In this document: one piece after another, positions 6,478 to 64,000 of the stretch
Layout: each line of letters opens with the position of its first letter
Numbering within the stretch: position 1 is the first letter of the stretch
IMG/VR virus record: IMGVR_UViG_3300003873_000002
Location: 90,124 to 154,123 of that record
DNA: 64,000 nt
Source of the DNA: a virus
Strand: one strand, 5' to 3'
Made by a program: the position numbers and the translations under genes
The notes under the pieces: model-generated
What the model saw: only the letters and a program-made list of their open reading frames with translations
Database searches by the model: none
Told to the model about the DNA's origin: nothing

Positions 6478-6837
6478 TTCTTTTTCCTTTGTACTTAACG
6501 ATTATTTAATCCAAACATCTTTCTATTATTTTGAAAACTGTACAGATTACATCAATTCCTTTAATTTAAATCAATTTCAATTGAATCAATTGTTTCAATT
6601 AATTCATTTTTAATAAAATAAATTAGCATATTTTTACAGCAGTATTTAATATTTGTATATCATATGGTTATCTGGTTATCTAAATATTTGTATTATTTGT
6701 ATTTGTGTTGTCTAAATACCAAAATATATGAATAATGTATTCTGACTCAATAAAAATTATAAAATCATAAATTCTACATATTGTTCCAAAATGGAACTCA
6801 ATTTTCCCTAAAACAGAAATCACCTTTTTTTCGAGGA
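6478..6837. other. AT-rich intergenic, no gene seen
   Basis: This 360-base stretch between the divergent fibre cluster and repeat element copy A is extremely AT-rich. Short TCAATT/AATTGA runs lie near 6560-6600. No ORF with a ribosome site, tRNA or convincing hairpin was seen. Confidence 0.5.
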
Positions 6838-7769
6838 ATCAGCTGTAACTTGTTGATTCTTTATTTTAAGAATCAGCTGTAACTTGTTGATTTTACATAT
6901 ATACCTTCCCATTTAGAATGTATTTGTTTTTCTTTTAAAATCAACAAGTTACCTCGTTTTTCCCACATGTTTTCTTCGAAAATCTGAAAACAAATTTTGT
7001 TTAAAATCAACAAGTTAACATGAAAATTTTCAAGTGCGCAAAAAACGCATCGATTTTGCCATGTTTTTAGAGCACCATAAAAAAAGCGCATTTTTTAACT
7101 TGTTGATTTTAAATGAAAAACATCAAATTTGTACACTATGTAAAATTAGAAACACTTTTCTATATAAAATATATATTACTAAGTAACATATATGTTTCAG
7201 ATGTAATGGCAAACCGGCCCGGATTTGGGACTGCCTGCCTGGATGGGTGGGTGTGGTGTAATGAGTGAAGTGTATTTGAGATAGTTGAATACAATTTCCA
7301 AAAACTTTTTTTACGTGTACAGATTTGACCTTTTCTGTTTAAATTCAACAAGTTATTGGATTCTCTAGATATCACAATTTTTAACCTTTTGTTGTACAGA
7401 TTTAGTGTTTTTTGTTTAAATTCAACGAGTTAATGATTTCATGGTTCCAAAAACTTTTTTCTACGTGTACAGATTTGACCTTTTCTGTTTAAATTCAACG
7501 AGTTATTGCATCTTTTGTTGTGGTTTATTTTTTTTCCCATGAGTTTGGATTTTGGATATTTTCTATTTAAAGTCAATAAGTTATTGGTTTTTAGTGCATT
7601 TTATGTGACATTCATGAGCATTGAATTAATCTGACTAAATTGAACTGAACCAATATTACATAACACATACAGATATGTTTAGATAGTTTAAATATAGTTT
7701 AAACTTCATATAACGCGCTGTATGAGACGATCTCTTTAAAAATGACATATGATATGACAATAAAAAAAT
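6838..7769. repeat. Iteron-rich repeat element, copy A (candidate origin or segregation locus)
   Basis: A ~0.93 kb non-coding element repeated, diverged but colinear, at 62995-64000. It carries about nine copies of an ~18-base iteron, consensus TTTAAAATCAACRAGTTA. Forward copies begin near 6935, 6998, 7337, 7416, 7488 and 7565; inverted copies (TAACTTGTTGATT) are near 6848, 6882 and 7097. Conserved non-iteron blocks include one around 7143-7206 (TATATATTACTAAGTAACAT, nearly palindromic) and repeated lines containing ACGTGTACAGATTTGACC. The core at ~7212-7265 is GC-rich and quite different from copy B. The right end, ATCTCTTTAAAAATGAC (~7730-7746), is also in copy B. Small open frames here (6873-7091, 7160-7375) follow the repeats and lack coding character. 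Confidence 0.85.
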
Positions 7770-9006: not shown

Positions 9007-9021
9007 AAGCTTCTAATACAT

Positions 9022-9104
9022 TATACAAACAGTATACAAACAGTATACAAACGGTATACAAACAGTATACAAACACTTCAGTGACCATAGCTTGACCATA
9101 GCTT
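9022..9104. repeat. Two consecutive 11-bp tandem repeats after the kinase gene
   Basis: Five near-identical copies of TATACAAACAG (9022-9076) are followed by two full copies and a partial third of GACCATAGCTT (9083-~9112). Both units are 11 bp but unrelated in sequence. Confidence 0.9.
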
Positions 9105-10798: not shown

Positions 10799-11010
10799 TT
10801 GAAGAAATTAACTTAGACCGCATTAATTCTAATAAAAAAATTATCACAATTCTCACTTCGGTTGGCATTAAAACCAATGGGGCAAAAAAGTGGTTAGTGG
10901 ATAATACTGATGATATTATAGGAGTGTTGCAACAAAATAATGAACCATATATATTCACAATAAAAGAATATGAATTATTGCGCACTGAATTAATTAAAAA
11001 ACAAAAATAA
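10795..11010 (+). CDS. Small hypothetical protein (71 aa), GTG start
   Basis: The GTG start at 10795 overlaps the preceding stop. The sequence contains an SVGIKTNGAKKWLVDNTDDI segment and a helical C-terminus (FTIKEYELLRTELIKKQK). No family recognised. The overlap with the 36-residue ORF suggests a two-gene unit downstream of the flagellin pair. Confidence 0.5.
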   Translation: MIEEINLDRINSNKKIITILTSVGIKTNGAKKWLVDNTDDIIGVLQQNNEPYIFTIKEYELLRTELIKKQK

Positions 11011-11038
11011 CCAATACAATTATGCGTCTGAAGAACCA

Positions 11039-11656
11039 ATGAAATATCGATATAAAACTTCATCTTTATCTGTGAATAGATTGCAGAGACTTAGTATGCA
11101 CTCAATGTTTCAAAACGAAACAAAAATTAGAGCCAGAGGGGTTGGTGGGTTTAAGTATATAGGGTACAGATTTGTTTATCACACCACCTCATCCCAGCGA
11201 TTTAAAAAAAGATGGAAGAATTTAGAAGGTACACCACTTGAGGTGCATATTAAATTGTATTTTTATGTAACTGGGGCCAAATATAAAGGCAAAAAGCGCG
11301 AAAGGTATTTGATTTGTGCTCAATTTCCATATAGTCGTGATTTCAAAACACTTAAAAATTTATATGATTTACCCGTAAAATTATTTTCATCAGACCCATC
11401 ATTTAAGTATTATTTTTCATATGCACTGAATAAACATAATGCTGTCATAACAGATGAAAATGTTATATTAAGACATCTCGGAAAATCTTTAACAAATATA
11501 CCAAAAAAACGGAACCCAAACCTTAATACAGAACTCACAAAACATTTTTATAAATTTTTTATATTTGCAAAAACAAAAAGACCAAATGATATATTAAAAA
11601 AACAATATAACCTTGGTAAAAAATTTAATATGCCAATTAAAAATAAAAATGTGTAA
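11039..11656 (+). CDS. Hypothetical basic protein (205 aa)
   Basis: 205 residues, rich in Lys, Phe and Tyr and strongly basic. It contains GVGGFKYIGYRFVYHTTSSQ and a beta-rich middle (LEVHIKLYFYVTGAKYKGKK). No signal peptide, Cys pairs or known enzyme motif. The net positive charge could fit nucleic-acid binding or a head/neck component, but neither can be claimed. Confidence 0.6.
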   Translation: MKYRYKTSSLSVNRLQRLSMHSMFQNETKIRARGVGGFKYIGYRFVYHTTSSQRFKKRWKNLEGTPLEVHIKLYFYVTGAKYKGKKRERYLICAQFPYSRDFKTLKNLYDLPVKLFSSDPSFKYYFSYALNKHNAVITDENVILRHLGKSLTNIPKKRNPNLNTELTKHFYKFFIFAKTKRPNDILKKQYNLGKKFNMPIKNKNV

Positions 11657-11935: not shown

Positions 11936-12043
11936 ATGAAGGATTTTTTTAAAAAAATTTTAAAAATTATTAGCCCTACTAAAAAAACAAACGATAATTT
12001 TTCATCATACCGCAGAACTACTAGACGCCATATAAATAAATAA
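11936..12043 (+). CDS. Small basic peptide (35 aa)
   Basis: ATG at 11936 with a clear ribosome site (AAGAAAGGAAA, 11919-11929); stop TAA at 12041-12043. It reads MKDFFKKILKIISPTKKTND, then NFSSYRRTTRRHINK. The first 13 residues could form a basic amphipathic or membrane-associated helix. No family recognised. The stop codon lies at the start of the following tandem repeat. Confidence 0.45.
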   Translation: MKDFFKKILKIISPTKKTNDNFSSYRRTTRRHINK

Positions 12044-12100
12044 TAAACTGTTATAAACTGTTATAAACTGTTATAAACTGTTATAAACTGTTATAAACTG
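12043..12100. repeat. 10-bp tandem repeat ATAAACTGTT, about six copies
   Basis: Near-perfect ten-base repeat filling the gap between the 35-residue ORF and endonuclease VII, ending ten bases before the endonuclease start. No separate Shine-Dalgarno is visible for the downstream gene. Confidence 0.95.
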
Positions 12101-12109
12101 CTGTAAAAA

Positions 12110-12707: not shown

Positions 12708-13478
12708 ATGATTAATACACACAATACTGATAATATGTCTATTGATGGAAACATTGACGATGATTTTGTTCTTGATATTGAAGAAAAAGAAAACCTTTTA
12801 GTAGACGAAATTCATGACGACAACGAAACTGCTGAAAGTGAGATAAAAACATCAGGGGAATTTTTAAGGGGTGTTTCTAAAAAGGTTAATTATATTAATG
12901 ATTTAGAATTAACTACTAAGTTATTAAAAGAATCAAAAGAATATAAAGACTATGCATTGTTTAAAGAAAATAACCCCGGTGGTGAATATAAATATGTTAA
13001 AAGAGAAGCACCATCCGACGAGTTATGCCTGAATTTTCTTAAAATTTATGAAGGAATAACACGCAAACCAAATTTTAGTGGCTATTCCGATGATTATAAA
13101 GAAGAATTCTTTTCGAAAGCACAATATTTATTTATCAGACATTGGTTTAAATTTGATCCATTAAAAGTAAGAAAAAATTATGTTGTAAATCCGAATTCTA
13201 AATTAAAATCAGTTAATGATATAGAGGTTAAAAAATCAAAAAACGGTGTTAAACTAAAAGAAAAAATTGATGCGGGTGAATTAACATTAAAACCAGAAGA
13301 GGCGTTTGAAGGGGGTTTTAGCTGGTTTACAATGCTTTGTGCTACTGCATGTGTTGATAGTATCACAATGTTTAAAAACCGTAGAGAAAAACAACGCGCA
13401 TTAATTAAATCAGTAGTGGATAAAAATACACTAAGTGACGAGCAGATAAAATTCAATTATGACTGGATTGATTTATGA
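12708..13478 (+). CDS. 55: Late-transcription sigma factor (T4 gp55-like)
   Basis: 256 residues, longer than T4 gp55 (185). The conserved blocks are in order: KVNYINDLELTTKLLKESKE (T4 'YNYVNNKELLQAI...'), RKPNFSGYSDDYKEEFFSKA (T4 '[20 protein letters not shown]'), RHWFKFDPLKV, then FSWFTMLCATACVDSITMFK with NRREKQRALI (T4 '[23 protein letters not shown]'). gp55 binds host core polymerase and directs it to late promoters. The extra length is an acidic N-terminal extension (residues ~1-50) and an insert of about 35 residues between the FDPLKV and FSWF blocks. It has its own sigma-70-type promoter, so it is expressed from an early or middle transcript. Confidence 0.85.
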   Translation: MINTHNTDNMSIDGNIDDDFVLDIEEKENLLVDEIHDDNETAESEIKTSGEFLRGVSKKVNYINDLELTTKLLKESKEYKDYALFKENNPGGEYKYVKREAPSDELCLNFLKIYEGITRKPNFSGYSDDYKEEFFSKAQYLFIRHWFKFDPLKVRKNYVVNPNSKLKSVNDIEVKKSKNGVKLKEKIDAGELTLKPEEAFEGGFSWFTMLCATACVDSITMFKNRREKQRALIKSVVDKNTLSDEQIKFNYDWIDL

Positions 13479-14961: not shown

Positions 14962-16629
14962 ATGGGTGGCAACGCTACAGGAACAAATAAAAAGACTGGA
15001 GTAGAAGTAGAAGCGGAAAAAATTCCTTTGAAACAAATTGGTCGATCAGAATTTACTAATAAATTCACATCAGTTTTTAAAGAATTAAATTCAATCTTTA
15101 AAAAAGAAAATAAAAAACCAATTTGGGTCGATGAAAATAAAATCACTACAGGTGAATTGTTTAACGGATCGACTTCATTTATTTTCGATGCCTCGATTCC
15201 TGACGATGAAATTGTTAAATATAAAGAGTTTGCTGGTGATATTGATATCATCGTCCCTGATAATTTAAAAACTGAATTATGGAATATGCTTGATAAATTA
15301 GAAGGCAATGAAGTTATCCCCGGCGTTACTTATATTGGATCAAATAAACCAACAGTTAAATCAATTGGTGACCAAATTAATGCTGTCTTTGTTGCAACAT
15401 TTAATGAATCAAAAATCGCGGTTCAGGTTGATTTTGAGTTTCTTGAAGTTGATGAAAATGGTTCACCATCTGAGTGGGCAAAATTTAGTCATAGTTCATC
15501 ATTCGAAGATGCAAAAAAGGATATTAAAGCAGTACACCACAAATATTTGTTACAATCATTGATTGGTGGTGCATCTATTAGAGATGATATTGTAATTGCA
15601 ACTCCATCATCTACACCAGAGAAAATTAGATTCAAGAAAATGAATGATTTACCACGTATGTTGAAATTTAGTGTTGGTCGTGGTATTCGAACTGCATATG
15701 AATTAATGTACGACATGGATGGTAATGTTATTCAACATAACGGAAAAGACGTATATAGGGAAATTCCGTCAAAATCAAGTAATTATGAAACAATCGTCGC
15801 TAACATCTATAAACTGGCATTTGGGCGTTTAGATGATAACAAAGATGATGTTAAATTATTCGGATCGTTTGTTGGTTTGATTGAATTAATGAAGAAGTAT
15901 TTAAATAAAAAACAGGTTCTTAATACATTGGATAGATATGTAGATAAATTATTCCGTGTAAAACCACCACGGGGTCAGGAATTGGAATCACATGATAAAG
16001 AATTAGATTACCGCGTTAAGATTGTTGGGTATGAATATTTCCTTAAACATTTAAACATTACTGATTCGAAATTAAAAGACAAATACAAAAACCAAATTGA
16101 TCTTTATTATAAGGAATGGAGAGGCAGACGCGATGAGAATTTGGTTAGGGGTATTATAGATAGTATCATTGAAAATCGAGTTAAAAATAGTAATGAAGAT
16201 GCTGTTGATGGTAGTGATATCACACCTGATGATATGAGCACAATTGCTAGTGTAGGTGCCCAACCAGTCATCAGTAATATTCTCGTTAGTGTCAAAAATA
16301 AGAATATTGATATTGGCGATGATATTGGCGATGATATCGGTGATGATATCGGTGATGATATCGGTGATGATGATGATATTGATATAGGTATTAGTGATGA
16401 TGATGCCAAAAGCATGGGTATTGATATTGATAATGGTGATGATGATGATGATATTTTACTTGAAAATGTATTAGATAAAACATTTAGTCTTGCGTGGTAT
16501 ATTACTACTATCGAGCCAGGTCTTGATTTCGTAAAACTTATTAATGAGTTACCTGAGGAAAATTCTGATTTGGAAGATTTGAATGATATTGTCGATGCTG
16601 TTATTGAGGCGTATAATATAGGACAATAA
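14962..16629 (+). CDS. Nucleotidyltransferase-fold protein
   Basis: 555 residues. The Pol-beta/NTase superfamily pattern is visible: LFNGSTSF (hG[ST] element, ~67-73), AGDIDIIV (D93 and D95, the DxD metal pair), and the third acidic strand KIAVQVDFEF (~150). The middle is helical. The C-terminus has a low-complexity acidic stretch of about six GDDI repeats encoded by a 12-bp repeat (16308-16370). NTase-fold proteins transfer nucleotides to RNA, DNA, proteins or small molecules; the substrate is unknown. It heads a three-gene run with a PD-(D/E)XK-like protein and a ligase/adenylyltransferase fusion. A packaged or structural role is possible given the size. Confidence 0.6.
   Translation: MGGNATGTNKKTGVEVEAEKIPLKQIGRSEFTNKFTSVFKELNSIFKKENKKPIWVDENKITTGELFNGSTSFIFDASIPDDEIVKYKEFAGDIDIIVPDNLKTELWNMLDKLEGNEVIPGVTYIGSNKPTVKSIGDQINAVFVATFNESKIAVQVDFEFLEVDENGSPSEWAKFSHSSSFEDAKKDIKAVHHKYLLQSLIGGASIRDDIVIATPSSTPEKIRFKKMNDLPRMLKFSVGRGIRTAYELMYDMDGNVIQHNGKDVYREIPSKSSNYETIVANIYKLAFGRLDDNKDDVKLFGSFVGLIELMKKYLNKKQVLNTLDRYVDKLFRVKPPRGQELESHDKELDYRVKIVGYEYFLKHLNITDSKLKDKYKNQIDLYYKEWRGRRDENLVRGIIDSIIENRVKNSNEDAVDGSDITPDDMSTIASVGAQPVISNILVSVKNKNIDIGDDIGDDIGDDIGDDIGDDDDIDIGISDDDAKSMGIDIDNGDDDDDILLENVLDKTFSLAWYITTIEPGLDFVKLINELPEENSDLEDLNDIVDAVIEAYNIGQ
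16308..16370. repeat. In-frame 12-bp tandem repeat (GDDI)n
   Basis: About five copies of GATGATATTGGC or its GGT variant encode Gly-Asp-Asp-Ile units in the NTase-fold protein. Twelve bases keeps the reading frame. Confidence 0.9.
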
Positions 16630-16631
16630 AA

Positions 16632-17942
16632 ATGTTTATTTCTAAAATATTAAAGAACATGAGAAGGTGCGAACAAGATGATTCAAATACATCGCACACT
16701 GTTAAAGGTGTTATACATGAAATGATCATTCATGCAAAACTTGAACGCATTAAAAATAAACTTGATGAAGATTCGAGTAACATTTCAATATCACAAAATA
16801 TCTATAACTTTCTTAAAAGTATAAAAACTGATGATATTAATATCAAAGCGATGATTAAAGATATGATGGTATCTTATTTTATTCATAATGATAAATATGC
16901 AACATACCTTAAAAATTATTTTGTTAATGAATTAAATCTGGATAAAAAACTGATAGAAAGTCTTGAAAATAAATTGAGAAGACGCGGTGTTACTAGCGAT
17001 TTCTATAAAATAATGAAAAAATTATTTATTTTTGATGATAATGGTTTTTTGTCCTCTACAAATGACAAACGCCCAGATTATAATGAAATTAACGCAAATG
17101 GATTTATTTCAGATTATTCAAAACCACTTTGTAATAAAATACAAAATACAACAGGAATAAATTCTGATATAATCGAATCTGTGTTTAGTGTTGTTGCGAA
17201 CCATAGTGGTGTTGTCGGTGGTCTTGGTGTTGGTAAATATGAAATAGCACTTATTATTTTCTTTAAAGGTGGTAAAAGTGCCGTTAAAGGCGATGTAATG
17301 TTAAACGATAAAAACGTTGAAGTCAAGGTGGGTAATGCGCGGTTAGGCAGTAATCTTAAAAATCATGCTGATGAAACACAAAGATTTTTAAAACTTACCT
17401 TTGATGCTGATACTGTGACTAGAAATGATGCGCCAATGCCAGTAAGTGTATTAGAATTTATGTGTGATGTTGTTGGAGCCACTAAACAGGATGCAAGTAG
17501 CACTGTGGTTAAAAATTCATTAAACTTTGTTGAAAAAAATATGATGACTCTTATTAATTATGTGACATCAACAAAGAAATATAATATAAACCTTAAAAAG
17601 TTTGTTAATTTTTATACAGCGAACTTTGTTAGTGAGATTTATGGTGGGGATTATAAAAAATACAACAGTGCTTTTTATAATGCATTTAAATCCAAAGATA
17701 TACAAAAGGATGTCATACCATTACTTGCTGCAACATCATTAATTTTATATAAAGAGTCCGAAGGGTTTAATATTTTTATTTTTATAAGTGGTACTGGTAA
17801 ATCTGCATTGAGCATAAATAAATTTACTGAAAAAGGCGTAGATGCCGCTATGAGAACATTTATCAAAAATGGTGGGAAAATTAACGGTACAACTGCATCA
17901 TCGAACCCAACAGGTGTTCGAATGAAATTGGGTGCCAAATAA
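16632..17942 (+). CDS. PD-(D/E)XK-like nuclease candidate
   Basis: 436 residues, starting three bases after the NTase-fold gene. Residues ~196-240 (VGGLGVGKYEIALIIFFKGG, then AVKGDVMLNDKNVEVKVGNA) fit a restriction-endonuclease core: E204, then D221 on a GDV strand, then E230-x-K232. The N-terminal ~190 residues and the C-terminus are helical and not recognised. If functional it would be a Mg-dependent DNase or a DNA-binding relic. Tight spacing with its neighbours suggests joint action or joint packaging. The nuclease call rests on this one motif. Confidence 0.45.
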   Translation: MFISKILKNMRRCEQDDSNTSHTVKGVIHEMIIHAKLERIKNKLDEDSSNISISQNIYNFLKSIKTDDINIKAMIKDMMVSYFIHNDKYATYLKNYFVNELNLDKKLIESLENKLRRRGVTSDFYKIMKKLFIFDDNGFLSSTNDKRPDYNEINANGFISDYSKPLCNKIQNTTGINSDIIESVFSVVANHSGVVGGLGVGKYEIALIIFFKGGKSAVKGDVMLNDKNVEVKVGNARLGSNLKNHADETQRFLKLTFDADTVTRNDAPMPVSVLEFMCDVVGATKQDASSTVVKNSLNFVEKNMMTLINYVTSTKKYNINLKKFVNFYTANFVSEIYGGDYKKYNSAFYNAFKSKDIQKDVIPLLAATSLILYKESEGFNIFIFISGTGKSALSINKFTEKGVDAAMRTFIKNGGKINGTTASSNPTGVRMKLGAK

Positions 17943-28827: not shown

Positions 28828-29083
28828 ATTCTTTGCCATTCTTTGCCATATATGACATTATGCCAGTCAAACAATATAATCTAATTAATCCCCATCAAAC
28901 TATAATTGTTTGTACATTATAAACACATTATAAACACATTATAAACACATTATAAACACATTATAAAACTCAGTACAATGCGCTATATGCGATGATATTA
29001 TTTCATAGATGGTTTTATGTCAATTTAATAAAAACATACCGTTAATCTCATTAAAATAAAAAAATAAAAAATAAAATAAACTG
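28828..29083. other. Gene-free stretch with tandem repeats
   Basis: Two copies of TGCCATTCTTT-like sequence (~28827-28850) and about five copies of an 11-bp unit ACACATTATAA (28919-28968). The block around 28978-29000 (AATGCGCTATATGCGATGAT) loosely resembles the right end of repeat copy A at 7714-7732. No gene seen. Confidence 0.6.
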
Positions 29084-29640: not shown

Positions 29641-29670
29641 AAATATTCAATAGTTGCAAAAAGAAATAAA

Positions 29671-29710
29671 ATAGTGTAAAATAGTGTAAAATAGTGTAAA
29701 ATAGTGTAAA
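29671..29710. repeat. 10-bp direct repeats upstream of parM (parC candidate)
   Basis: Four perfect copies of ATAGTGTAAA with partial copies at both ends, 43 bases before the parM ATG. Direct repeats just upstream of parM are the usual form of parC, bound by ParR. Similar-looking tandem repeats occur in most gaps of this genome, so the assignment is tentative. Confidence 0.5.
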
Positions 29711-29752
29711 ATAAGTACAGATTTAAATTATTAACAACGAGCAGGAGTAATT

Positions 29753-40477: not shown

Positions 40478-40510
40478 TAGAATGAATTTAAACCAAAGAA
40501 AGGAATGTTT

Positions 40511-41239
40511 ATGGAAGATTTATTACCACCAACTGATAATGTAACTGGTGTTGTAGCTGTTTTGAGTGGTGGTTTGGACTCAACAACACTAACATACGCT
40601 TTAGTTGATAAATATGGTAAAGATAAAGTATCTGCTTTATCGTTTATGTATGGACAAAAGCAATCAAAAGAGCTCGATTTGGCTGCGGTCACGTGTAAAA
40701 AACTTGGAATTGCACATAAGATTATTGATATTTCATTTCTAGGTGACATTGTAAGTAAAGTTTCTGCGAATATTGGAACATCAGAAGTTAAAATGCCAAC
40801 CATTAAAGACGTACTGGGTGATCCCCAACCACCAACATACGTGCCATTCAGAAATATGATTTTGAATTCAATTGCATTTAGTTATGCCGAAGTAAATGAA
40901 TGTAATTATATTGCAACTGGGCTTCAAATTCATGATGTATATGGATATTGGGACACCTCTAAGGCATTCGTGGATTCAATGAATAACGTGGCAAAAAATA
41001 ATAGAATGTTTGGTGTTGAAATGATTGCACCGTTCGCATCACTTTCAAAAAAAGATGAAATCGAAATTGGGGATACTTTAAACGTACCATATGAAGACAC
41101 ACTAACATGCTATAACCCATCTGATGATGGCAAATCATGTGGTGTTTGCCCATCATGCGCGGAAAGGATTCATAATTTTAAACTAGCTGGTAAAAAAGAC
41201 CCCGTTGAATATCAAATTGATATTAAGTGGAGTGTTTAG
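40511..41239 (+). CDS. queC: 7-cyano-7-deazaguanine synthase (QueC)
   Basis: About 242 residues from the ATG at 40511, preferred over 40505 because AAAGGA (40499-40504) is correctly spaced. The PP-loop is VAVLSGGLDSTTLTYALV. Other family segments are ALSFMYGQKQSKELDLA, YVPFRNMILNSIAFSYAE and the zinc site SCGVCPSCAER near the C-terminus. It converts 7-carboxy-7-deazaguanine to preQ0 with ATP and ammonia. It is immediately followed by a class II amidotransferase with no gap. Confidence 0.93.
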   Translation: MEDLLPPTDNVTGVVAVLSGGLDSTTLTYALVDKYGKDKVSALSFMYGQKQSKELDLAAVTCKKLGIAHKIIDISFLGDIVSKVSANIGTSEVKMPTIKDVLGDPQPPTYVPFRNMILNSIAFSYAEVNECNYIATGLQIHDVYGYWDTSKAFVDSMNNVAKNNRMFGVEMIAPFASLSKKDEIEIGDTLNVPYEDTLTCYNPSDDGKSCGVCPSCAERIHNFKLAGKKDPVEYQIDIKWSV

Positions 41240-41878
41240 ATGTGTGCTATATTTGGATCATTCGAAAAACAAACCTTAATGGATTTGTATAATAAAAACA
41301 AATACAGAGGAAATTTTAGTTTTTCAATCACTAGCATTGATACAAAAACACTTAAATCATCCACAAATAAATTTTTTGGCGAAATGGATGAAAAACAACT
41401 AGATAATTGCTTTGTTGAAGGCAGATATCATATATGTCATACACAAGCACCCACAAATGTGCGCGTAAATGATTTTAATAGAATTCATCCAGTTCAAATA
41501 GATGATTATAAATTATTGCATAACGGGATTATTGTTAGTGATTACAATATTAAACTTAAAGAAAAATATAACACAGGGTGTGATTTTGATACATTTAATC
41601 TTGCAGCAGCAATTAAAACTGACGGATACAGTGTATTAAATGATATGCAGGGGTCTTTTGCGTGTGTAGAGATCACAGAGCATAATTATCCACGTATTTT
41701 TAGAAACGAAAACAGTATTTTGTGTACAGATGGGGTGAATATCAGTTCAGCAAAACTTAAAGGATATACCCCAATTATACCAAATCAGGTTTATAAAATT
41801 GATTTTAATAATGGTGTTGATGGGATAGAAATAATTGAAAGTTTTAATAACAAATATACAAATTTTTATTTCGAATAA
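41240..41878 (+). CDS. gat: Class II glutamine amidotransferase next to QueC (Gat-like)
   Basis: 212 residues. The N-terminal nucleophile is C2 (MCAIFG), with HICHTQAPTN and LLHNGIIVSDY, the Ntn-type GATase II glutamine pocket. No synthetase domain follows, so it supplies ammonia to a partner. Known phages with 7-deazaguanine-modified DNA (for example Escherichia phage 9g) carry a Gat-QueC fusion that turns preQ0 into the amidine of archaeosine. Here the same two domains lie as adjacent genes. This suggests the product goes past preQ0, for example to a dG+-type base; that is inference. Confidence 0.75.
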   Translation: MCAIFGSFEKQTLMDLYNKNKYRGNFSFSITSIDTKTLKSSTNKFFGEMDEKQLDNCFVEGRYHICHTQAPTNVRVNDFNRIHPVQIDDYKLLHNGIIVSDYNIKLKEKYNTGCDFDTFNLAAAIKTDGYSVLNDMQGSFACVEITEHNYPRIFRNENSILCTDGVNISSAKLKGYTPIIPNQVYKIDFNNGVDGIEIIESFNNKYTNFYFE

Positions 41879-41901
41879 ATTTTGGTATCAAGGAAAGAGA
41901 G

Positions 41902-42714
41902 ATGAATAAAAAGAAACCATTACTGGTAAGTGAAATTTTTGGTGCGGGTGGTACTGGATACCCAACAATTCAAGGTGAGGGCCCATTTTGTGGTAATCCC
42001 TCAATTTTTATCAGATTAGGTGGGTGTAATTTTACATGCGAGGGATTTGGATGCACGGAGGTAGCACCAGATGGAACAACAGTCAATGGGTGTGATTCAA
42101 TTTACTCAGTTTCGCAGAAATTTAAAGAAACGTGGTCACCATATACAGATTTCATGGATATTGTGGATGCAGTTAATTATGAACAACGAAATATGAAAAA
42201 TGAAGCAAACATGCAGCCAGTTGATATTGTTATTACTGGTGGTGAGCCATTAATGCAGCATCAAAATATTGTTCTTATTAATACAATTGAATATTTTATT
42301 ACCAGGGGACATCGTGTAACAATGGAAACAAATGCATCTGTGCATGTTAACTTCATAAAATACCCAATTTATAAAAAGGTCATTTTTACAATGTCTGTTA
42401 AATTAGCTGTATCTGGTGAACCGTATGAAAAAAGAGTTAAAGTAAAAACAATCAATGCTATTATTCAAAATACAAAAGGAAGTCATTTTAAATTTGTGGT
42501 AAGTAAAGAAGAAGCAGATAATGGTGTAATGGAAATTAAAGAAATTCTACGCAAAATTCCAGAATATGCAGATGTTTATTTAATGCCACTTGGAATGCAT
42601 GCAGATGAAATTGATAAAAATTTACCAGCAGTTGCACAAGCATGTGTCAGGGAACAGTTTAAATTATCTGATAGATTGCACGTCAGAGTGTTTGGTGCTG
42701 AGAAAGGTACATAA
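41902..42714 (+). CDS. queE: 7-carboxy-7-deazaguanine synthase (QueE), radical SAM
   Basis: 270 residues. The QueE opening TIQGEGPFCGNPSIFIRLGG is followed by CNFTCEGFGC and, ~18 residues on, GCDS. The classic compact CxxxCxxC is therefore spread out: two cysteines in CNFTC and the third probably in GCDS (phage-type QueE layout), though C in GFGC is an alternative. VIVITGGEPLMQ is the GGEP SAM motif, and VTMETNAS the substrate strand. It contracts CPH4 to the deazapurine ring. It has a good AAGGAAAGAG ribosome site. Confidence 0.88.
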   Translation: MNKKKPLLVSEIFGAGGTGYPTIQGEGPFCGNPSIFIRLGGCNFTCEGFGCTEVAPDGTTVNGCDSIYSVSQKFKETWSPYTDFMDIVDAVNYEQRNMKNEANMQPVDIVITGGEPLMQHQNIVLINTIEYFITRGHRVTMETNASVHVNFIKYPIYKKVIFTMSVKLAVSGEPYEKRVKVKTINAIIQNTKGSHFKFVVSKEEADNGVMEIKEILRKIPEYADVYLMPLGMHADEIDKNLPAVAQACVREQFKLSDRLHVRVFGAEKGT

Positions 42715-42764
42715 ATCATTTAAAATCATTTAAAATCATTTAAAATCATTTAAAATCATTTAAA
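42713..42764. repeat. 10-bp tandem repeat AAATCATTTA, five copies
   Basis: Near-perfect array beginning inside the queE stop codon and ending ~30 bases before folE. Confidence 0.95.
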
Positions 42765-42794
42765 CAAATAAAACAAAACAAGAAGAGATGAACT

Positions 42795-43553
42795 ATGAAC
42801 GAGCAAAAAGATTTTGTTTACAAAAGACTAATAAAAAAATATAATATGTCAATTGACCAATTTAATGACATTTATAATCAATATGAAGCAATGGAACCAT
42901 TTAAAATCAGTGAATCATGTTATGAAGTAGGATACAACATTAGTGATGAATTGCATTATATTATTAGATTGTCGACACAATATTTTATCACAAAGGCATT
43001 CAAAGCAATGAAGGTTGATTTAAGTGATGCGAATGTTGAAGAAAACATGGGTGAAGGAAATATCGGCACACCAGGTAGAGTAGCTAAAATGTGGTGTGGT
43101 GGTCATTTAAATGATGATTCAGAACATTTGAGCGGTCGATGGTCAAAAACACCAAGAATTGCAAGTTTTCCAAATACAACCAATAACAAACAACCTATTA
43201 CGAAACGAGTTAGCTTAATGAGTGTTTGTAGCCATCACTTAGCGCCATTTTCATCACTATTCAATGAAAATTCTGTTGCCACGATCTCATACATCCCAAA
43301 TAAACTTGTAATCGGAATTTCCAAGTTACAACGTCTAGTAGAATCTGTCGCAAGAAGGGGTTGGCTACAAGAAGATTTAACAAGAAAAATTTATGAAGAA
43401 GTAAGTAAAATTTGTGAAACAGAATCTGTTTCTGTTAAACTCGAAAATATTGAGCATACGTGTGAGACAACTAGGGGCGCAAAAAATCCAGAGGGTGGGT
43501 TTACATCTGTTTATGAGGGAGGTCAATTTTTAAATCATAAAATAAAAACTTAA
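42795..43553 (+). CDS. folE: GTP cyclohydrolase I (FolE)
   Basis: 252 residues, type IA. Signatures: NIGTPGRVAKMW (normally ..TP.RVAk.w), MSVCSHHLAPF (zinc residues C145 and H148 region, CSHH for the usual CEHH), NKLVIGISKLQRLVESVARR, and the second Cys in EHTCETTRGAK. It makes dihydroneopterin triphosphate from GTP, the entry step for QueD. Last gene of the operon; with QueD (33881), QueE and QueC it completes GTP to preQ0. Confidence 0.92.
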   Translation: MNEQKDFVYKRLIKKYNMSIDQFNDIYNQYEAMEPFKISESCYEVGYNISDELHYIIRLSTQYFITKAFKAMKVDLSDANVEENMGEGNIGTPGRVAKMWCGGHLNDDSEHLSGRWSKTPRIASFPNTTNNKQPITKRVSLMSVCSHHLAPFSSLFNENSVATISYIPNKLVIGISKLQRLVESVARRGWLQEDLTRKIYEEVSKICETESVSVKLENIEHTCETTRGAKNPEGGFTSVYEGGQFLNHKIKT

Positions 43554-48371: not shown

Positions 48372-50195
48372 ATGAGTATCATTGCAACAGATATAAATGA
48401 AAGCTTTGTTAAGTTTAATTTTGAAAAATTGGCTGACCCCATGACGGCTAAAAAAATGCTTGATAGTATTCTTGCGGTGTACGTGGATAACTTCAAATTT
48501 AATCCCGAATTTCGATCTGGTGTATGGGATGGAAAGAAAAGATTTTATAAAATTGTTGATGGTGAAATGTATGCACCAAAAGGACTTATAAAATCAATTA
48601 TAAAGTTTATGAGTCAGCATTATAATATTGAATACACACCAACATCTTATTTGAACATTACCCGTGATGAATTAGAAGATTTTATACAGTCGCTTAATCT
48701 ACCATTTAAACCATATGATTTCCAGTTCGAGTATATTTATAACTCAATCAACGAAGGCAGAAATGTGGGTATTTCATGCACATCTAGTGGAAAATCCCTT
48801 ATGATTTATATTATCATGCGATGGATGGTATCACAAGGCATGAAATCTGTTCTAATAGTTCCAAATATTTCCTTGGTTGCACAAATGAACGATGATTTCA
48901 AATCATATGGAATTGATATTAATGTTCACTTAATAACCGCAGGGAAACCGAAACATTTCGACGAGCAAATTACAATAACTACGTGGCAGTCAATATATAA
49001 ACACAGTGAATTGTTTAAAGATATTGACTGCATTATTGTTGATGAAGTTCATAGGGCTAAAGGTGATTCACTTCAGGATATCATGTCATCAGCTACAAAT
49101 ACCAAATACAGATTTGGTGTTACTGGCACCCTACCACGACCAATTGACGAAAAAATGACAGTAGTATCTGCATTTGGCAAAACAAGAAAAGTTATTAATT
49201 CAATGTCTTTAATAGATTACGGACTGGCTACACCCATAGAAATACAGATGATTTTCGGCAAATATAGTGATGATGATATGGCCAAATTCAGAAGTGGCTG
49301 CACAGGAAATGCATACCAATCTGAAAAAAAATTTATTGAAACACACACAAATAGAAACAAAATAATTGCTGAGATGGCAAATAAAATTTCATCAAAAACT
49401 GGCAATACATTTGTGATGTTTGGCACAATAGCACATGGAAAATTTCTTCTTTCATTAATACTCGCTGAACGTTATAAAATAGATTATAATAATATTAAAG
49501 TGGTAGATAAGATAACTAATAAATCTATTAATGATATATATGAAAGTTGTATGGGTTATGCAGGTTGTAGTTTTAATAATTCACACTTCTTTATTAATGG
49601 CGTGTTTAATGAAGAAACAAAAAAACAAATTAGGAAGTTTCTTATCTCCAGAAAAAATAAATACACCAAGGAATTAAAAAATAAACCAAATAAACCAAAT
49701 AAACAACACGAAGTATTTATCAATTCAATTGATGATAATATAGATATTTTTATCAGTAGGTTTAAATCACTACAAGATGAAGATGTTTATATTGTATATG
49801 GTGATATTGAAGCAAAACAACGTGAAGAAGTAAGAAAAATTTTAGAAACAAAAGAAACAGCGATTGTGCTTGGTTCGTTCCCCACAATGAGTACAGGTAT
49901 AAGCATTAAACGACTTCATAATGTTATTCTGGGCTCATCTATAAAATCGTTTATAACACTAAACCAAATTATTGGGCGATTAATGCGATTATATGATGGA
50001 AAGGATAAAGCAAAATTATGGGACTTCGTTGATGATTTAACACCAAGCAATGGCAATGAATGCACCATGATTAAACACTCTAATGAAAGGATTGAAATTT
50101 ATTTTGATAATGAATATCCTATATTAACAAACGATATTAAAATTCCAAGTGATTGTGTTAGTGATGGCGACAAGCTTATGCAGTCATGGATTTAG
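48372..50195 (+). CDS. uvsW: UvsW-like SF2 DNA/RNA helicase
   Basis: 607 residues (T4 UvsW 587). PYDFQFEYIYNSINEGRNVG, ISCTSSGKSLMIYIIMRWM (Walker A), SVLIVPNISLVAQM (Ia), CIIVDEVHRAKG (DEVH box), RFGVTGTLPR (III), later IVLGSFPTMSTGISIKRLHN and LNQIIGRLMRLYDGK (VI). UvsW unwinds R-loops and branched intermediates and switches replication from origin- to recombination-dependent. An insert of ~60-70 Lys/Asn-rich residues (KELKNKPNKPNKQ) occurs between helicase lobes. Confidence 0.92.
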   Translation: MSIIATDINESFVKFNFEKLADPMTAKKMLDSILAVYVDNFKFNPEFRSGVWDGKKRFYKIVDGEMYAPKGLIKSIIKFMSQHYNIEYTPTSYLNITRDELEDFIQSLNLPFKPYDFQFEYIYNSINEGRNVGISCTSSGKSLMIYIIMRWMVSQGMKSVLIVPNISLVAQMNDDFKSYGIDINVHLITAGKPKHFDEQITITTWQSIYKHSELFKDIDCIIVDEVHRAKGDSLQDIMSSATNTKYRFGVTGTLPRPIDEKMTVVSAFGKTRKVINSMSLIDYGLATPIEIQMIFGKYSDDDMAKFRSGCTGNAYQSEKKFIETHTNRNKIIAEMANKISSKTGNTFVMFGTIAHGKFLLSLILAERYKIDYNNIKVVDKITNKSINDIYESCMGYAGCSFNNSHFFINGVFNEETKKQIRKFLISRKNKYTKELKNKPNKPNKQHEVFINSIDDNIDIFISRFKSLQDEDVYIVYGDIEAKQREEVRKILETKETAIVLGSFPTMSTGISIKRLHNVILGSSIKSFITLNQIIGRLMRLYDGKDKAKLWDFVDDLTPSNGNECTMIKHSNERIEIYFDNEYPILTNDIKIPSDCVSDGDKLMQSWI

Positions 50196-50261
50196 AAGAT
50201 TTTGTGTATATTTGACACAGTTGGTATAAATAAAGTATGAATGAAGTATGAAGATAGTATG

Positions 50262-50400
50262 GAGGAATTACAGACTCTTTTCAAGTAAGGACCATGGTAT
50301 AGTCCACACCCATTGATTTAGTGTGGGTATATCGCGGGCGCGGAGTTAGAATAGCATGGGTATGGTACACGCAGCACAAAATGCTCCGAATGTGGTGAAA
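50262..50400 (+). ncRNA. Structured RNA candidate between uvsW and gp45
   Basis: A ~140-base, GC-rich island in otherwise AT-rich, repeat-filled sequence, with no ORF. Visible pairings: CCACAC (50304-50309) with GTGTGG (50321-50326), extendable by G-U pairs; and CGGA (50341-50344) plus GCAT (50354-50357) with ATGCTCCG (50381-50388), a stem with an asymmetric bulge. The pieces AGACT (50272-50276) and GTATAGTCC (50298-50306) resemble the two P7 strands of phage group I introns. No P3-P6 core or split gene was found, so an intact intron is unlikely. A leader element for gp45, an intron remnant or a trans-acting RNA are all open. Confidence 0.4.
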
Positions 50401-50715
50401 AATTAAGTATTTATAATTAATTAAGAATCATTAAGAAATAATCGAAAATAAATTAATAATAATGAAAATATTGATTAACAAATAATAACAAATAATAACG
50501 AAATTTAATCGAAAATACTCATAACAACAAATGATTTAAACAAAAGCAACGTATAGTAAATGATTTAAACAAAATAACCAACTTAAACGAAAAATAACAA
50601 AAATAACAAAAAATAACAAAAAATAACAAAAAATAACAAAAAATAACAAAAAATAACAAAAAATAACAAAAATAACAAAAATAACAAAAATAACAAAAAT
50701 AACAAAAAATAAATG
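50401..50715. repeat. AAAAATAAC-type tandem repeat array upstream of gp45
   Basis: After an AT-rich stretch with TAATAACAAA duplications (50480-50505), about fourteen copies of a 9-11-bp AAAAATAAC unit run from ~50585 to 50710. No gene. Confidence 0.85.
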
Positions 50716-50745
50716 TTGAAATTAATACATAATGTGTGTTATAAT
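50716..50745 (+). promoter_or_regulatory. Distal gp45 promoter (first of a duplicated pair)
   Basis: TTGAAA (50716-50721), 18-base spacer, TATAAT (50740-50745). The flanks (AAATGTTGAAATTA before, AATGTGTGTTATAATATA after) are repeated at the proximal promoter. Confidence 0.75.
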
Positions 50746-50784
50746 ATACGTATAGAAACACATGTATATTTTTAACTACGAAAA

Positions 50785-50870
50785 ATAACCAACTTAAACG
50801 AAAAATAACGAAAAATAACGAAAAATAACGAAAAATAAATGTTGAAATTATATGCAATGTGTGTTATAAT
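50785..50870 (+). promoter_or_regulatory. Proximal gp45 promoter with AAAAATAACG repeats
   Basis: TTGAAA (50842-50847), 17-base spacer, TATAAT (50865-50870). It is preceded by about four copies of AAAAATAACG (50799-50838). The pair looks like a ~125-bp segmental duplication of repeat plus promoter. Confidence 0.78.
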
Positions 50871-50927
50871 ATAAATGTATTGAACACCAATATATTTTTG
50901 ACCGCGGATTAAACGAAAGGATAAAGA

Positions 50928-51629
50928 ATGTTAACGACAGAAACAAAAAACTACATCAAAATGATGTCAAACATCTCAGACTCAGCCATTATTCGATGGC
51001 CAGTAACAAATTTCAACCCGACTGATAAATCGGTAATTGCATTTATTGATTTAGAAAAATTAGGTGAACCATCCTTTGAACAATTTGGTATCTATAGAAT
51101 TTCAGAATTTCTCCAGTTACTTGATTATTATGATGATGCATCAGTTAGTCTAGATAATAATGTTATTACTATCAAAAGTGATTCAACAGTACAAAGATAT
51201 ATTACAACAAATGAAAATAATTTATCTTCTTTCAGTGTATCACCAGCAATCTTAGATAAAATTTCCGAAGCACCATTAGCGTGTTCAATTCATGTTTCTA
51301 AAGAAGAAATGGATAGAATTAAAAAAATTAGTAACCTCTTGAGTCTGCACGAATTGGGTATTAAATCAGTAAATGGTGAAATTATTTTTACAATCCAAGC
51401 TGATTCAAATAAATCAAACATCCAGGCACAAAATGATAATAAAACTATCATGGAAGGCACATCAAATGAAGATTTTGCAATTGCAATGAAAATTGAAAGT
51501 ATCCAAAAATTACCAAACTGTGATTATAATGTAGAAATCCACCGTAATGCATCATCAGGTAATTTTATTACTCAATGGGACGCAGTTGATTTACCTATTA
51601 AAATTGTTGTGATGCCTAAAGCAGAGTAA
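50928..51629 (+). CDS. 45: Sliding clamp (T4 gp45-like)
   Basis: 233 residues (T4 gp45 228). The T4 clamp pattern includes the start LTTETKNYIKMMSNISDSAI, FGIYRISEFLQLLDYYDDAS (T4 'LGEFLQ...'), RYITTNENNLSSF, and the C-terminal DYNVEIHRNASSGNFITQWD segment. Trimeric ring for polymerase processivity and, in T4, the mobile activator of late transcription with gp33 and gp55. Two tandem promoters suggest strong expression. Confidence 0.9.
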   Translation: MLTTETKNYIKMMSNISDSAIIRWPVTNFNPTDKSVIAFIDLEKLGEPSFEQFGIYRISEFLQLLDYYDDASVSLDNNVITIKSDSTVQRYITTNENNLSSFSVSPAILDKISEAPLACSIHVSKEEMDRIKKISNLLSLHELGIKSVNGEIIFTIQADSNKSNIQAQNDNKTIMEGTSNEDFAIAMKIESIQKLPNCDYNVEIHRNASSGNFITQWDAVDLPIKIVVMPKAE

Positions 51630-55585: not shown

Positions 55586-56029
55586 ATGTTTATAAAGCAA
55601 TCAAATAACCCTTCAGCCAAATTAATCAATATTAAAAATGTCTCAAACATTGGCATTGAGCGCGAAAAAATGCGCATAATTTTTAATTTTCAACATAGTA
55701 TAAATATTTTTAATGGTGGATTGCGCCCAGATTATATTTATATGGACTTCAAAACACTGGATGATTTCTATCATGAGCTTAGAAATGTTACAGAAAAATG
55801 TAAGGATGATTTTTTTATTGATAAAAATTATAATAATAGATATGTTAATAAATCGGCAATATGCTCTATTAATATAGAAACAAAACGCAGACGCATCATT
55901 TTTAATTTAAATCATCAAATCAGTGCAAAAAATCCAGATAAGATTACATCAAATTTTATTTTTTGGAATTTTGATTGTGAAAGTTCATTCAACGACGCTA
56001 AAAAAGACATCGAATCTAATATTTTTTAA
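55586..56029 (+). CDS. Hypothetical protein with two similar domains (147 aa)
   Basis: Two segments align by eye: residues ~20-65 (IGIEREKMRIIFNFQHSINI...YIYMDFKTLDDFYHEL) and ~93-143 (SINIETKRRRIIFNLNHQIS...FIFWNFDCESSFNDAKKDI). Each has an 'R-x-IIFNxxH' strand and a later 'x-D-F/C...F' helix start, suggesting an internal duplication of a ~50-residue alpha/beta unit. No known family. Placed between primase and the DsbA-like gene. Confidence 0.55.
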   Translation: MFIKQSNNPSAKLINIKNVSNIGIEREKMRIIFNFQHSINIFNGGLRPDYIYMDFKTLDDFYHELRNVTEKCKDDFFIDKNYNNRYVNKSAICSINIETKRRRIIFNLNHQISAKNPDKITSNFIFWNFDCESSFNDAKKDIESNIF

Positions 56030-56048
56030 TAAATTATAAAAATACATG

Positions 56049-56077
56049 TTGACATAATCATTGGTATGTATTATAAT
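56049..56077 (+). promoter_or_regulatory. Consensus sigma-70 promoter for the DsbA-like gene
   Basis: TTGACA (56049-56054), 17-base spacer, TATAAT (56072-56077): perfect match, 41 bases before the ATG at 56118. Confidence 0.88.
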
Positions 56078-56117
56078 AATAAAAAAATAAAAACACCAAA
56101 CACATAAAGGTAATTCA

Positions 56118-56387
56118 ATGGACGAAGTAGCTGCAGTTTTAAATTATGCAAAATCTATTCTAGGTATCGAATATGAAATCACTATGTTAAGAGAGCAGGT
56201 GAAAGACATAAAATCCGATGCCAAGAATGATGGTGTATCAATTAAATCAGTAAACGCTGCAATCAGCAGAATTAAAAAAGAACTATCAACTACCATCGAC
56301 GAAAAAACTGATATCGAAGATATGGAATCTATTATCAAAGATGACCCAGGTGTAATGAAAGTTATCAGGGCGATTGTCGATAAATAA
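56118..56387 (+). CDS. Small dsDNA-binding protein candidate (T4 DsbA/GapR-like)
   Basis: 89 residues, exactly the length of T4 DsbA. The pattern 'ExxxLREQVKDIKSDAKNDG', then VSIKSVNAAISRIKK, is like the helical core of DsbA and GapR-type proteins ('...kdIrxxAKxxGxdxkxlnxxi'). These bind duplex DNA as nucleoid-like or late-promoter-stimulating factors. It has a perfect promoter upstream and a terminator hairpin downstream, so it is probably strongly expressed as a single gene. Assignment is by length and pattern only. Confidence 0.5.
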   Translation: MDEVAAVLNYAKSILGIEYEITMLREQVKDIKSDAKNDGVSIKSVNAAISRIKKELSTTIDEKTDIEDMESIIKDDPGVMKVIRAIVDK

Positions 56388-56425
56388 GACTCATAAACCA
56401 ATCTTGCAAATCATATAATTGCATT

Positions 56426-56458
56426 AAAGGCATTAAATTAAAAAAAAATAGTGCCTTT
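56426..56458 (+). terminator. Hairpin terminator candidate after the DsbA-like gene
   Basis: AAAGGCA (56426-56432) pairs with TGCCTTT (56452-56458) around a 19-base A-rich loop; bidirectional T/A-rich flanks. Confidence 0.55.
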
Positions 56459-56459
56459 T

Positions 56460-56583
56460 ATATAAACGTGTGTTATAATATACATAAATAAACAAACATT
56501 AACAAACACCATGTTGTTTATAGTTGTCGCATCAAAATCACAATAACAAAATCGCACTAAAATCGTGTTAAAAAGGAAGATGC
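56460..56583 (+). promoter_or_regulatory. Leader of the Cas4-like gene with a TATAAT box
   Basis: TATAAT at 56474-56479 preceded by GTGTGT; no matching -35. Then AACAAACATT duplications and an AAGGAAGA ribosome site before 56584. Confidence 0.35.
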
Positions 56584-57408
56584 ATGCCATTAAAATTTGC
56601 ACCGTATTCATTTAGTAAAATTACAACGTTTACCCAGTGCCCGAAGAAATTCAAATTTAAATATATAGATAAAATTTATTTTAAATCTGACAATATCGCG
56701 CTAGAAAAGGGTAGTTATATACACCTACTATTGGAAATACTGGCAAATCCATCATTTGCAGATTCAAGAAAGATTGATATTGTATCTACCGCTATGCATG
56801 TAATTAATAAAACACAGTTCAAATTTTCACTATCAACTGAACAAGATATTAAATCACACCAAAAAATCTTTTTAAATTTTATTCAAAGCGATATAGGCCA
56901 CAAGTATTTTATTGATTATGATATCATCTCTGCAGAAGAAGAGTTTGGTATAAAGTGGGATAACAATAACTTTGATGCAACAAGCTATTACAATAAATCA
57001 GCTACTATCAGAGGAAAGGTTGACCAAATTTCAAAAAATGGCAATGAAATCCATATCATTGATTGGAAGTCAGGAAAGGTACCTCAAGAAATAAGTGAAA
57101 TGCAAATTCAACTTTACGCTATCTGGTTTTTTCTTAAATTTAAAAATATAGATAAAGTAATAACATCATTTGTTTATATTGAACACAACAAAGAAAAAAC
57201 AGTTGTATACAAAAGAGATGATATCCCACTTATTAAAAAAGCGTACGGAAGACGAATCAAAGAAATTGAAATTGAAAATTCTTTTAATAAAAAAGAAACA
57301 CACATGTGCAATTGGTGTGAGTATAGAAATAAAGGGCTTTGTGACGAATTAAGCTCATTTAAAAATATCAAATTACAAACCCAAAATAGTCAAAATAAGA
57401 GATTATAA
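56584..57408 (+). CDS. Cas4/RecB-like PD-(D/E)XK exonuclease
   Basis: 274 residues. YSFSKITTFTQCPKKFKFKY has the first Cys (C20), GSYIHLLLEIL the RecB-motif His, then IIDWKSGKVPQ (D-x-K core of PD-(D/E)XK) and QIQLYAIWFF (motif QxxxY). The C-terminal HMCNWCEYRNKGLC supplies three more Cys, so it has the four Cys for a 4Fe-4S cluster as in Cas4/AddB-type nucleases. Probably a ssDNA or end-processing exonuclease in recombination. No CRISPR array or cas1/cas2 is present, so this is a phage recombination gene, not a CRISPR locus. Confidence 0.88.
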   Translation: MPLKFAPYSFSKITTFTQCPKKFKFKYIDKIYFKSDNIALEKGSYIHLLLEILANPSFADSRKIDIVSTAMHVINKTQFKFSLSTEQDIKSHQKIFLNFIQSDIGHKYFIDYDIISAEEEFGIKWDNNNFDATSYYNKSATIRGKVDQISKNGNEIHIIDWKSGKVPQEISEMQIQLYAIWFFLKFKNIDKVITSFVYIEHNKEKTVVYKRDDIPLIKKAYGRRIKEIEIENSFNKKETHMCNWCEYRNKGLCDELSSFKNIKLQTQNSQNKRL

Positions 57409-58230: not shown

Positions 58231-58527
58231 ATGCCTGGTTTTGCAAGATTAGGCGACAATGATACGGGCCACCCATGTTATGGTGGAAGACCATCAAATG
58301 CAGCAAATGGCTCTGTTTTCGCTAACGGCAAATTAATTATGGGTGTTGGGTGTTCCGGGTGGCCGTCACACTGTTGTGGCCCAGCATGCCATGGTTCTGC
58401 GGTCGCAAGTGGTTCTGGCTCTGTTTTTGTTGAAGGTTGTCCGTCCGCGAGGGTAGGAGATCCGTTGGATTGTAGCTCGATTGATTTTTGTGACGGCCAT
58501 TCTGGTGATGTAAACGCTGGCGGGTAG
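58231..58527 (+). CDS. PAAR-domain spike tip protein
   Basis: 98 residues. Starts MPGFARLGDNDTGHPC, then GSVFANGKLIMGVG, GSGSVFVEGCPSARVGDPLD and the His/Cys-rich metal residues (SHCCGPACHGS, FCDGHSG). This is the PAAR layout that caps gp5/VgrG-type spikes; T4's counterpart is gp5.4. It forms the sharp, metal-stabilised tip of the tail tube. Higher GC than its neighbours. It is a virion gene placed among replication genes. Confidence 0.92.
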   Translation: MPGFARLGDNDTGHPCYGGRPSNAANGSVFANGKLIMGVGCSGWPSHCCGPACHGSAVASGSGSVFVEGCPSARVGDPLDCSSIDFCDGHSGDVNAGG

Positions 58528-62510: not shown

Positions 62511-62994
62511 TTTTATAATTTTTTGTAATTTAATGGGGTGTTGCTGGCAATGTTGTGTAATGTCATGACATCCCAATATAAATGAAGACAAAATAAAACA
62601 ACCCTGTTTAAATCAGTGCAAACCGATACAAACCGTTGCAAACCGATACAAACCGATACAAACCGCGTCAACACAAAAAATATTATCGCACTGTATATGG
62701 AATACCACAATTTTTAAACAATTTTAAGTACAACTCCAATTGAATCCATCACACCACACTAATTGAATAATTCAAAGTCATACCAAATCATACCAAATCA
62801 TACCAAATCATACCAAAATCACCCAAGCTAATTTAACACTTCATGTTTTTCATATTTAAAAAAAATAATAAAAAAATAATAAAAAATAATAAAAAATTAT
62901 GCTAAAATCACACTGAAATTTCCATGCTGATTTTGAAAAAACATCCGGAGAATTACCTATAAAAAAATAAAAAATCACAAAAATTTTTTTTGGC
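62511..62994. other. Gene-free stretch with tandem repeats
   Basis: Contains about four copies of AACCGATACA (62621-62665), four of TACCAAATCA (62779-62817) and an A-rich AATAAAAAA run (62858-62897). No gene; a minus-strand frame at 62513-62710 is repeat-driven. Confidence 0.75.
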
Positions 62995-64000
62995 ATCAGC
63001 TGTAACTTGTTGATTCTTTATTTTAAAACCAGCTGTAACTTGTTGATTTTACGCATATACCGTCCCATTTAGAATGTATTTGTTTTTCCTTTAAAATCAA
63101 TAAGTTACTGCGTTTTTTATGTGATTTTTTTAAAAATCTGAAAAACAAATTTCGTTTAAAATCAACAAGTTAACATGAAAATTTTCAAGTGTGCAAAAAC
63201 TGCTCACTTTTCGCGCTGTTTTGAGACAGGGATGAAAAAAGCGCATTTTTTAACTTGTTGATTTTAAACGAAAAACATCAAATTTGTACACGGTGTAAAA
63301 TTAGAAACACTTTTCTATATAAAATATATATTACTAAGTAACATATATGTTTCAGATGTAATGGCAAGGCGTGTTCTGGATGTGTTGTGGGGTTTTTTCT
63401 GTTTATGGATTTCCAAAAACTTTTTTTTACGTGTACAGATTTGACCTTTTCTGTTTAAATTCAACGAGTTATTGAATTCCATGGATGTCACAATTTTTGA
63501 CCGTTTGTTGTACAGATTTAGTGTTTTCTGTTTAAAATCAACGAGTTAATGATTTCATGGTTCCAAAAACTTTTTTTACGTGTACAGATTTGACCTTTTT
63601 TGTTTAAATTCAACGAGTTATTGCATCTTTTGATTAAAATGTGTATTTTATAAAAATTGCTTTATAATTTTCTGTTTAAAATCAACAATTTAAGAAATCT
63701 TAAAAATATCAATTATAATTTTATTTTATATTTTTTATTTAAAATCAATCGGTTCGCTTAATGTGTTAACAATTATTGTATCACTAAAAACAAAGAGTTG
63801 TGTTATTTGTGTTCATTTTTGATCCAGTCACTGTTTGGTAAATTATCTCTTATTTTATAATCGATGCGAGCCGCTTGAACTCATTAAACACATTATAAAG
63901 CTTGGTTATTAATATCAGTATAAAAATAGTATAAGACTTAGTATAAAGCTCATCATAAGACAATCTCTTTAAAAATGACTTATGGTATACCAATAAAAAA
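62995..64000. repeat. Iteron-rich repeat element, copy B (continues to the window edge)
   Basis: Colinear with copy A (6838-7769). About ten iterons of consensus TTTAAAATCAACRAGTTA: inverted near 63006, 63038 and 63249; direct near 63090, 63153, 63450, 63530, 63600, 63673 and 63737. Shared blocks include TATATATTACTAAGTAACAT (~63327-63346), ACGTGTACAGATTTGACC (twice) and the right-hand ATCTCTTTAAAAATGAC (~63963-63979). The core at ~63365-63412 differs from copy A. It starts ~480 bases after the origin-binding helicase gene, as expected for a replication origin or a terminal/segregation element. Confidence 0.88.

Follow-up and report, generated by a model that had tools for sequence, protein, structure and literature searches.

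In AT-rich genomes a high GC content of intergenic DNA has been published as an indicator of structured RNAs, and GC-rich intergenic segments of such genomes are enriched for them (PMC2704228). Small RNAs are also described for lytic phages; the examples reviewed in PMC12197685 include RNAs of phage phiR1-37 and, from a lytic cyanophage, an antisense RNA (Millard 2010). The T4 replication origin oriF uses a promoter together with an unwinding element (PMC3016281). Here we describe a GC-rich noncoding island located between the uvsW gene and the clamp gene of an AT-rich virus (IMG/VR record IMGVR_UViG_3300003873_000002; 154,123 bp). The window, i.e. the whole stretch of 64,000 nucleotides that was analyzed, corresponds to bases 90124-154123 of this record. 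A first-pass annotation had proposed that the island could be an intron remnant, a leader element or a trans-acting phage RNA.

The phage and the neighborhood of the island

The phage is of the T4 type. This assignment is based on a family-B polymerase, a sliding clamp, UvsW, a gp32-like SSB, a clamp loader and a replicative helicase, and also on a Dda-like helicase and a gp55-like late sigma factor. Its nearest catalogued relatives are distant, with matches at 30% to Campylobacter phages for the clamp and at about 30-34% to Vibrio phages for the DNA polymerase, and the best IMG/VR match of uvsW, among the matches listed, is at 38%. Searches with the clamp and the DNA polymerase, both as single proteins and as alignments, revealed no close relatives, and the corresponding searches with uvsW gave none among the matches listed. 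UvsW contains an insertion of ~95 residues between conserved helicase blocks, which is absent from six T4-type homologues.

Several other features of the genome were recorded. A noncoding repeat of ~0.7 kb is present in three copies (window 6825-7517 and 62916-63632, record 55975-56791, the latter being 15975-16791 of stretch L004). The copies are 83-87% identical and contain ~75-bp TTCCAAAAACTTTTTT...ACGTGTACAGATTTGACC subunits. Two of them, in opposite orientation, are located where the strand of the genes and the GC skew change (near 56 and 97 kb of the record), and the third lies near the record end. These repeats may represent origins or clusters of promoters, or they may be inverted repeats that flank an invertible segment of 41 kb. 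Tandem arrays with a unit of 9-12 bp, close to one helical turn, are present in many intergenic gaps, and their sequence differs from place to place (for example window 9018-9075, 12043-12107, 28914-28967 and 29667-29713). Genes for a QueC-like protein, a QueE-like protein and a GTP cyclohydrolase are located close together at window 40505-43550, which suggests a 7-deazaguanine DNA modification pathway.

The coordinates of the island and of the features that bear on its interpretation are summarized in Table 1. The island lies between uvsW and the clamp gene, as had been annotated. It lies 67 nt past the uvsW stop codon and ~530 nt ahead of the clamp start. Neither of the two genes is interrupted, and the C-terminus of UvsW is complete in comparison with six homologues.

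Table 1. Island and associated features (positions within the window)
Feature	Positions	Strand	Remarks
GC-rich noncoding island, candidate small RNA	50262..50402	undecided	minus strand folds slightly better
uvsW	48372-50195	+	same strand as the plus strand of the island
Clamp ORF	50928-51629		complete, separate from the island
gp55-like late sigma gene	12708-13478
TATAAATA, T4-type late promoter octamer	50225..50232	+	points into the island; predicted start about 50238
TATAAATA(C), T4-type late promoter octamer	50408..50415	-	points into the island; predicted start about 50402
P7-like motifs AGACT and GTATAGTCC	50272..50305	+	chance-level
Hairpin GGACUAU-ACC-AUGGUCC	50289..50305	-	from sequence and minus-strand minimum-energy fold
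Hairpin with CCACAC/GTGTGG stem	50304..50326	not assigned	core of plus-strand stem 50292-50337
Tandem AACAAAAAAT-type arrays and duplicated ~126-bp unit with both clamp promoters	50586..50899	+	separate from the island

Composition, coding content and search for relatives

The noncoding DNA of the record has a GC content of 0.24-0.26. Within the island, windows of 60 nt reach values up to 0.53, compared with about 0.10-0.25 in the clamp-side flank, so that its description as GC-rich proved correct. To rank the island we used 7,644 noncoding 120-nt windows from the whole genome (mean 0.261, sd 0.069). The segment 50282-50401 (120 nt, GC 0.475) turned out to be the second highest noncoding place of the genome after a tRNA-Ser (0.492), and the next place below it reached 0.425. 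The unusual composition of the island is real. In stretch L003 there is a third gap that appears GC-rich; most likely it belongs to a coding gene which the stretch boundary truncates. The GC-richest stretch of the window (up to 0.62) belongs to the gene of a glycine-rich, PAAR-like small protein at 58231-58527.

An ORF of at least 40 aa with ATG, GTG or TTG as start was found on neither strand of the island, and the plus-strand frames, when read through and compared with Pfam and PHROGs, gave nothing credible. One plus-strand frame contains the zinc-ribbon-like sequence KCSECGEKL; this frame is broken by three stops and its best PHROG match has an E-value of 0.099. ARAGORN and RF00005 detected no tRNA or tmRNA in the window and found the four real tRNAs of the same genome elsewhere. 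These four genes are clustered at positions 10882-11265 of stretch L002; two Asn tRNAs are near-copies, and one has the unusual anticodon ATT.

No homologue of the island could be identified by BLAST, pattern or covariance searches. Searches of phages (megablast and blastn) and of plasmids (blastn) returned only one weak match (E 0.01) to a Paenibacillus replicon, which is located inside an unrelated 154-aa ORF on the other strand and was attributed to chance. Exact and gapped patterns of the island had no match in IMG/VR. The single pattern match in a GTDB contig lies inside a protein-coding ORF of 295 aa of a Poribacteria MAG and was likewise considered to be chance. Within the window, local copies of the island were limited to chance matches of 12 nt. 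Single-sequence covariance models of both strands, searched against 764 kb, recovered the island alone at E<0.1, with the best other match at E 0.5.

Folding and promoters

Minimum-energy folds were compared with those of dinucleotide shuffles and expressed as z-scores. The first-pass annotation had noted several nested complementary segments; these could not be distinguished from chance, as the whole plus strand has a z-score of -0.15 and 78 of 200 shuffles fold equally well. The predicted plus-strand transcript gave a z-score of -0.5. On the same strand a hand-picked hairpin of 51 nt (50290-50340) reached -2.2, and a folding energy of -17.8 kcal/mol was calculated for the stem 50292-50337. 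For the minus strand the values were -1.3 (155 nt), -1.7 (predicted transcript 50402-50239, with sub-windows up to -2.3) and -2.1 (202 nt including flank), all of them uncorrected and picked from many windows. Using the same method, the tRNAs of the phage showed z-scores of -1.4 to -3.4. After correction for the many windows tried on both strands, none of the island scores is significant. The hairpin at 50289-50305 is complete with one G-U pair on the minus strand, whereas a C-A mismatch interrupts it on the plus strand.

At each edge of the island a T4-type late promoter octamer, TATAAATA, is directed inward. Both octamers are consensus matches only. In noncoding DNA this octamer occurs once per about 1.84 kb per strand, and based on this background an octamer would lie no more than about 40 nt from a given edge with a probability of about 2%. 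In noncoding DNA up to 120 nt upstream of ORFs, 11 octamers are in forward and 2 in reverse orientation (one-sided binomial about 0.01). The arrangement was noted only in retrospect and lies in AT-rich flanks, so that the inward octamers are supportive and not decisive; they may be chance occurrences in such flanks. An intrinsic terminator was not found.

Two strong clamp promoters of the sigma-70 type (TTGAAA-N17/18-TATAAT) are present at 50716 and 50842, and tandem repeats fill the sequence from the island to the clamp gene, both in agreement with the first-pass annotation. The proposal of a clamp leader does not fit this arrangement. A leader or riboswitch would be located between a clamp promoter and the start codon; the island lies outside this interval, with both strong promoters 300-450 nt downstream of it. 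A role as clamp leader is therefore unlikely and would need read-through from further up.

Possible identities of the island

Tentatively, we regard the island as an orphan, late-expressed small RNA of the phage, with the strand left undecided. At this position a noncoding RNA gene of roughly 130-165 nt would be transcribed late from a gp55-type TATAAATA promoter, with a start at about 50238 if the plus strand is used or at about 50402 if it is the minus strand, and the product would be a stable, small structured RNA that acts in trans, its targets being RNA or protein of the host or the phage. This reading is favored by the rank of the island as the second GC-richest noncoding place of the genome below only tRNA-Ser, by the inward octamers at both edges together with the 11:2 orientation bias and the gp55-like sigma factor, by the z-score of the predicted minus-strand transcript, which is in the range of some of the phage's own tRNAs, and by the lack of an ORF of at least 40 aa and of protein-family matches in the plus-strand frames. 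It is weakened by the plus strand, which has no excess structure, by the selection of uncorrected minus-strand scores, by the missing terminator, by the possibility that the octamers are due to chance, and by the failure to find a homologue in the collections searched. Of the first-pass annotation, the GC-rich composition stood, the structural part proved weak and the intron reading was lost; among its options the trans-acting RNA is the best candidate, on account of the tRNA-like GC content and the inward late octamers. Its statement that selection must keep the island is an assumption, as the collections searched contain no relative of the island. It is rather unlikely that the island represents a new class of late phage RNA without an Rfam relative, possibly encoded on the minus strand and antisense to a uvsW-clamp transcript. 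The evidence does not constrain the mechanism further than to an RNA that would be transcribed, folded and trans-acting. If the island is transcribed, it would add a noncoding RNA to the replication genes of a T4-like phage without close relative in the collections searched, and it would support the use of intergenic GC content as an inexpensive criterion for detecting noncoding RNAs in AT-rich phages. If it is not transcribed, the island is a short fragment of DNA that is foreign or decayed.

The latter possibility, inert GC-richer DNA from a former gene, a tRNA or a mobile element that became integrated between uvsW and the clamp gene and is not yet ameliorated, is the main and a serious rival to the small RNA, although on balance we consider it somewhat unlikely. 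A fold no better than predicted by composition, the absence of a homologue and of an intact ORF, and the zinc-ribbon-like sequence in its broken frame speak for such DNA. On the other hand, phages, plasmids, IMG/VR and GTDB patterns yielded no donor, the two best DNA matches are chance matches, and promoter octamers are present at both edges. Less likely is a cis element in the 3' UTR of uvsW, with hairpins that block 3' exonucleases or define where processing separates the late uvsW transcript from the downstream replication genes. The start of the island 67 nt past the stop codon on the same strand and the energy of the plus-strand stem are consistent with this role, but the plus strand as such is unexceptional (z -0.15 to -0.7), the island is far longer than a usual stabilizing hairpin and a terminator is missing. 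The product of uvsW unwinds R-loops of the oriF/oriG type, and a T4-like origin consisting of a promoter, an R-loop transcript and an AT-rich unwinding stretch beside uvsW could include the island. AT-rich tandem repeats and two strong promoters are indeed located just downstream; however, the majority of the intergenic gaps of this phage have similar AT-rich arrays, the record shows turns of the cumulative GC skew near 56 and 97 kb and not at 140.4 kb, and a GC-rich segment is the reverse of what is expected of an unwinding element, which makes this explanation very improbable. Even less credit can be given to a gene for a very small protein, for example the ORF of 22 codons from 50249, which begins with ATG in a plus frame (MKIVWRNYRLFSSKDHGIVHTH): it has no family match, it covers only half of the island, and ORFs of this length are expected by chance at the GC content of the island.

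The remnant of a group I intron, comprising the P7 and P9 region, is by now largely refuted and has hardly any probability left; at most a remnant decayed beyond recognition would be compatible with the results. The motifs AGACT (50272-50276) and GTATAGTCC (50297-50305) are present as annotated and are similar to the R and S strands; the S-like motif is followed by a hairpin at the place expected for P9. However, the pair AGACT...ATAGTC occurs twice in the genome compared with about 3.5 times in shuffles, and for the S-like 12-mer 3 matches are present in the window where 6 are expected. The R-like and S-like strands are only 20 nt apart, which leaves no room for P3'/P8; P3, P8 and P4-P6 could not be found around the motifs, and the AT-rich upstream region contains no P/Q elements. 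There is no interrupted gene, and no homing endonuclease was recognized among the adjoining genes scanned. The Rfam search proposed beforehand was run in E-value mode over 49900-50950 and gave no match to Intron_gpI or any other family at E<=10, while the control, the group I intron of T4 nrdB, was detected with 5.5e-7. At the gathering score no intron was detected in the window or in the whole genome. The control (L095, 2509-2749) scored 35.7 bits, which is below the Rfam gathering score of 50; scans at this level can therefore miss genuine phage introns, and the whole-genome negatives are weaker than they look.

Comparison with known systems

With the group I introns of T4-type phages (td, nrdB, nrdD; RF00028) the island shares R- and S-like motifs and the following hairpin, but it lacks a core, P3/P8 and P/Q elements, interrupts no gene and has no Rfam match. 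The phage resembles T4 at oriF/oriG (PMC3016281) in the presence of promoters and AT-rich DNA near uvsW, whereas the GC skew does not turn at the island and the AT-rich part is located outside of it. The GC-rich intergenic candidates of 'Cand. Pelagibacter ubique' (PMC2704228) have many metagenomic homologues, in contrast to the island with none in the collections searched; both were selected by the same criterion, a high intergenic GC content in an AT-rich genome. Although the candidate RNA is predicted here from the DNA sequence and no sequence similarity was found, it is, like the small RNAs of lytic phages, noncoding and intergenic or antisense in a large phage of the lytic type.
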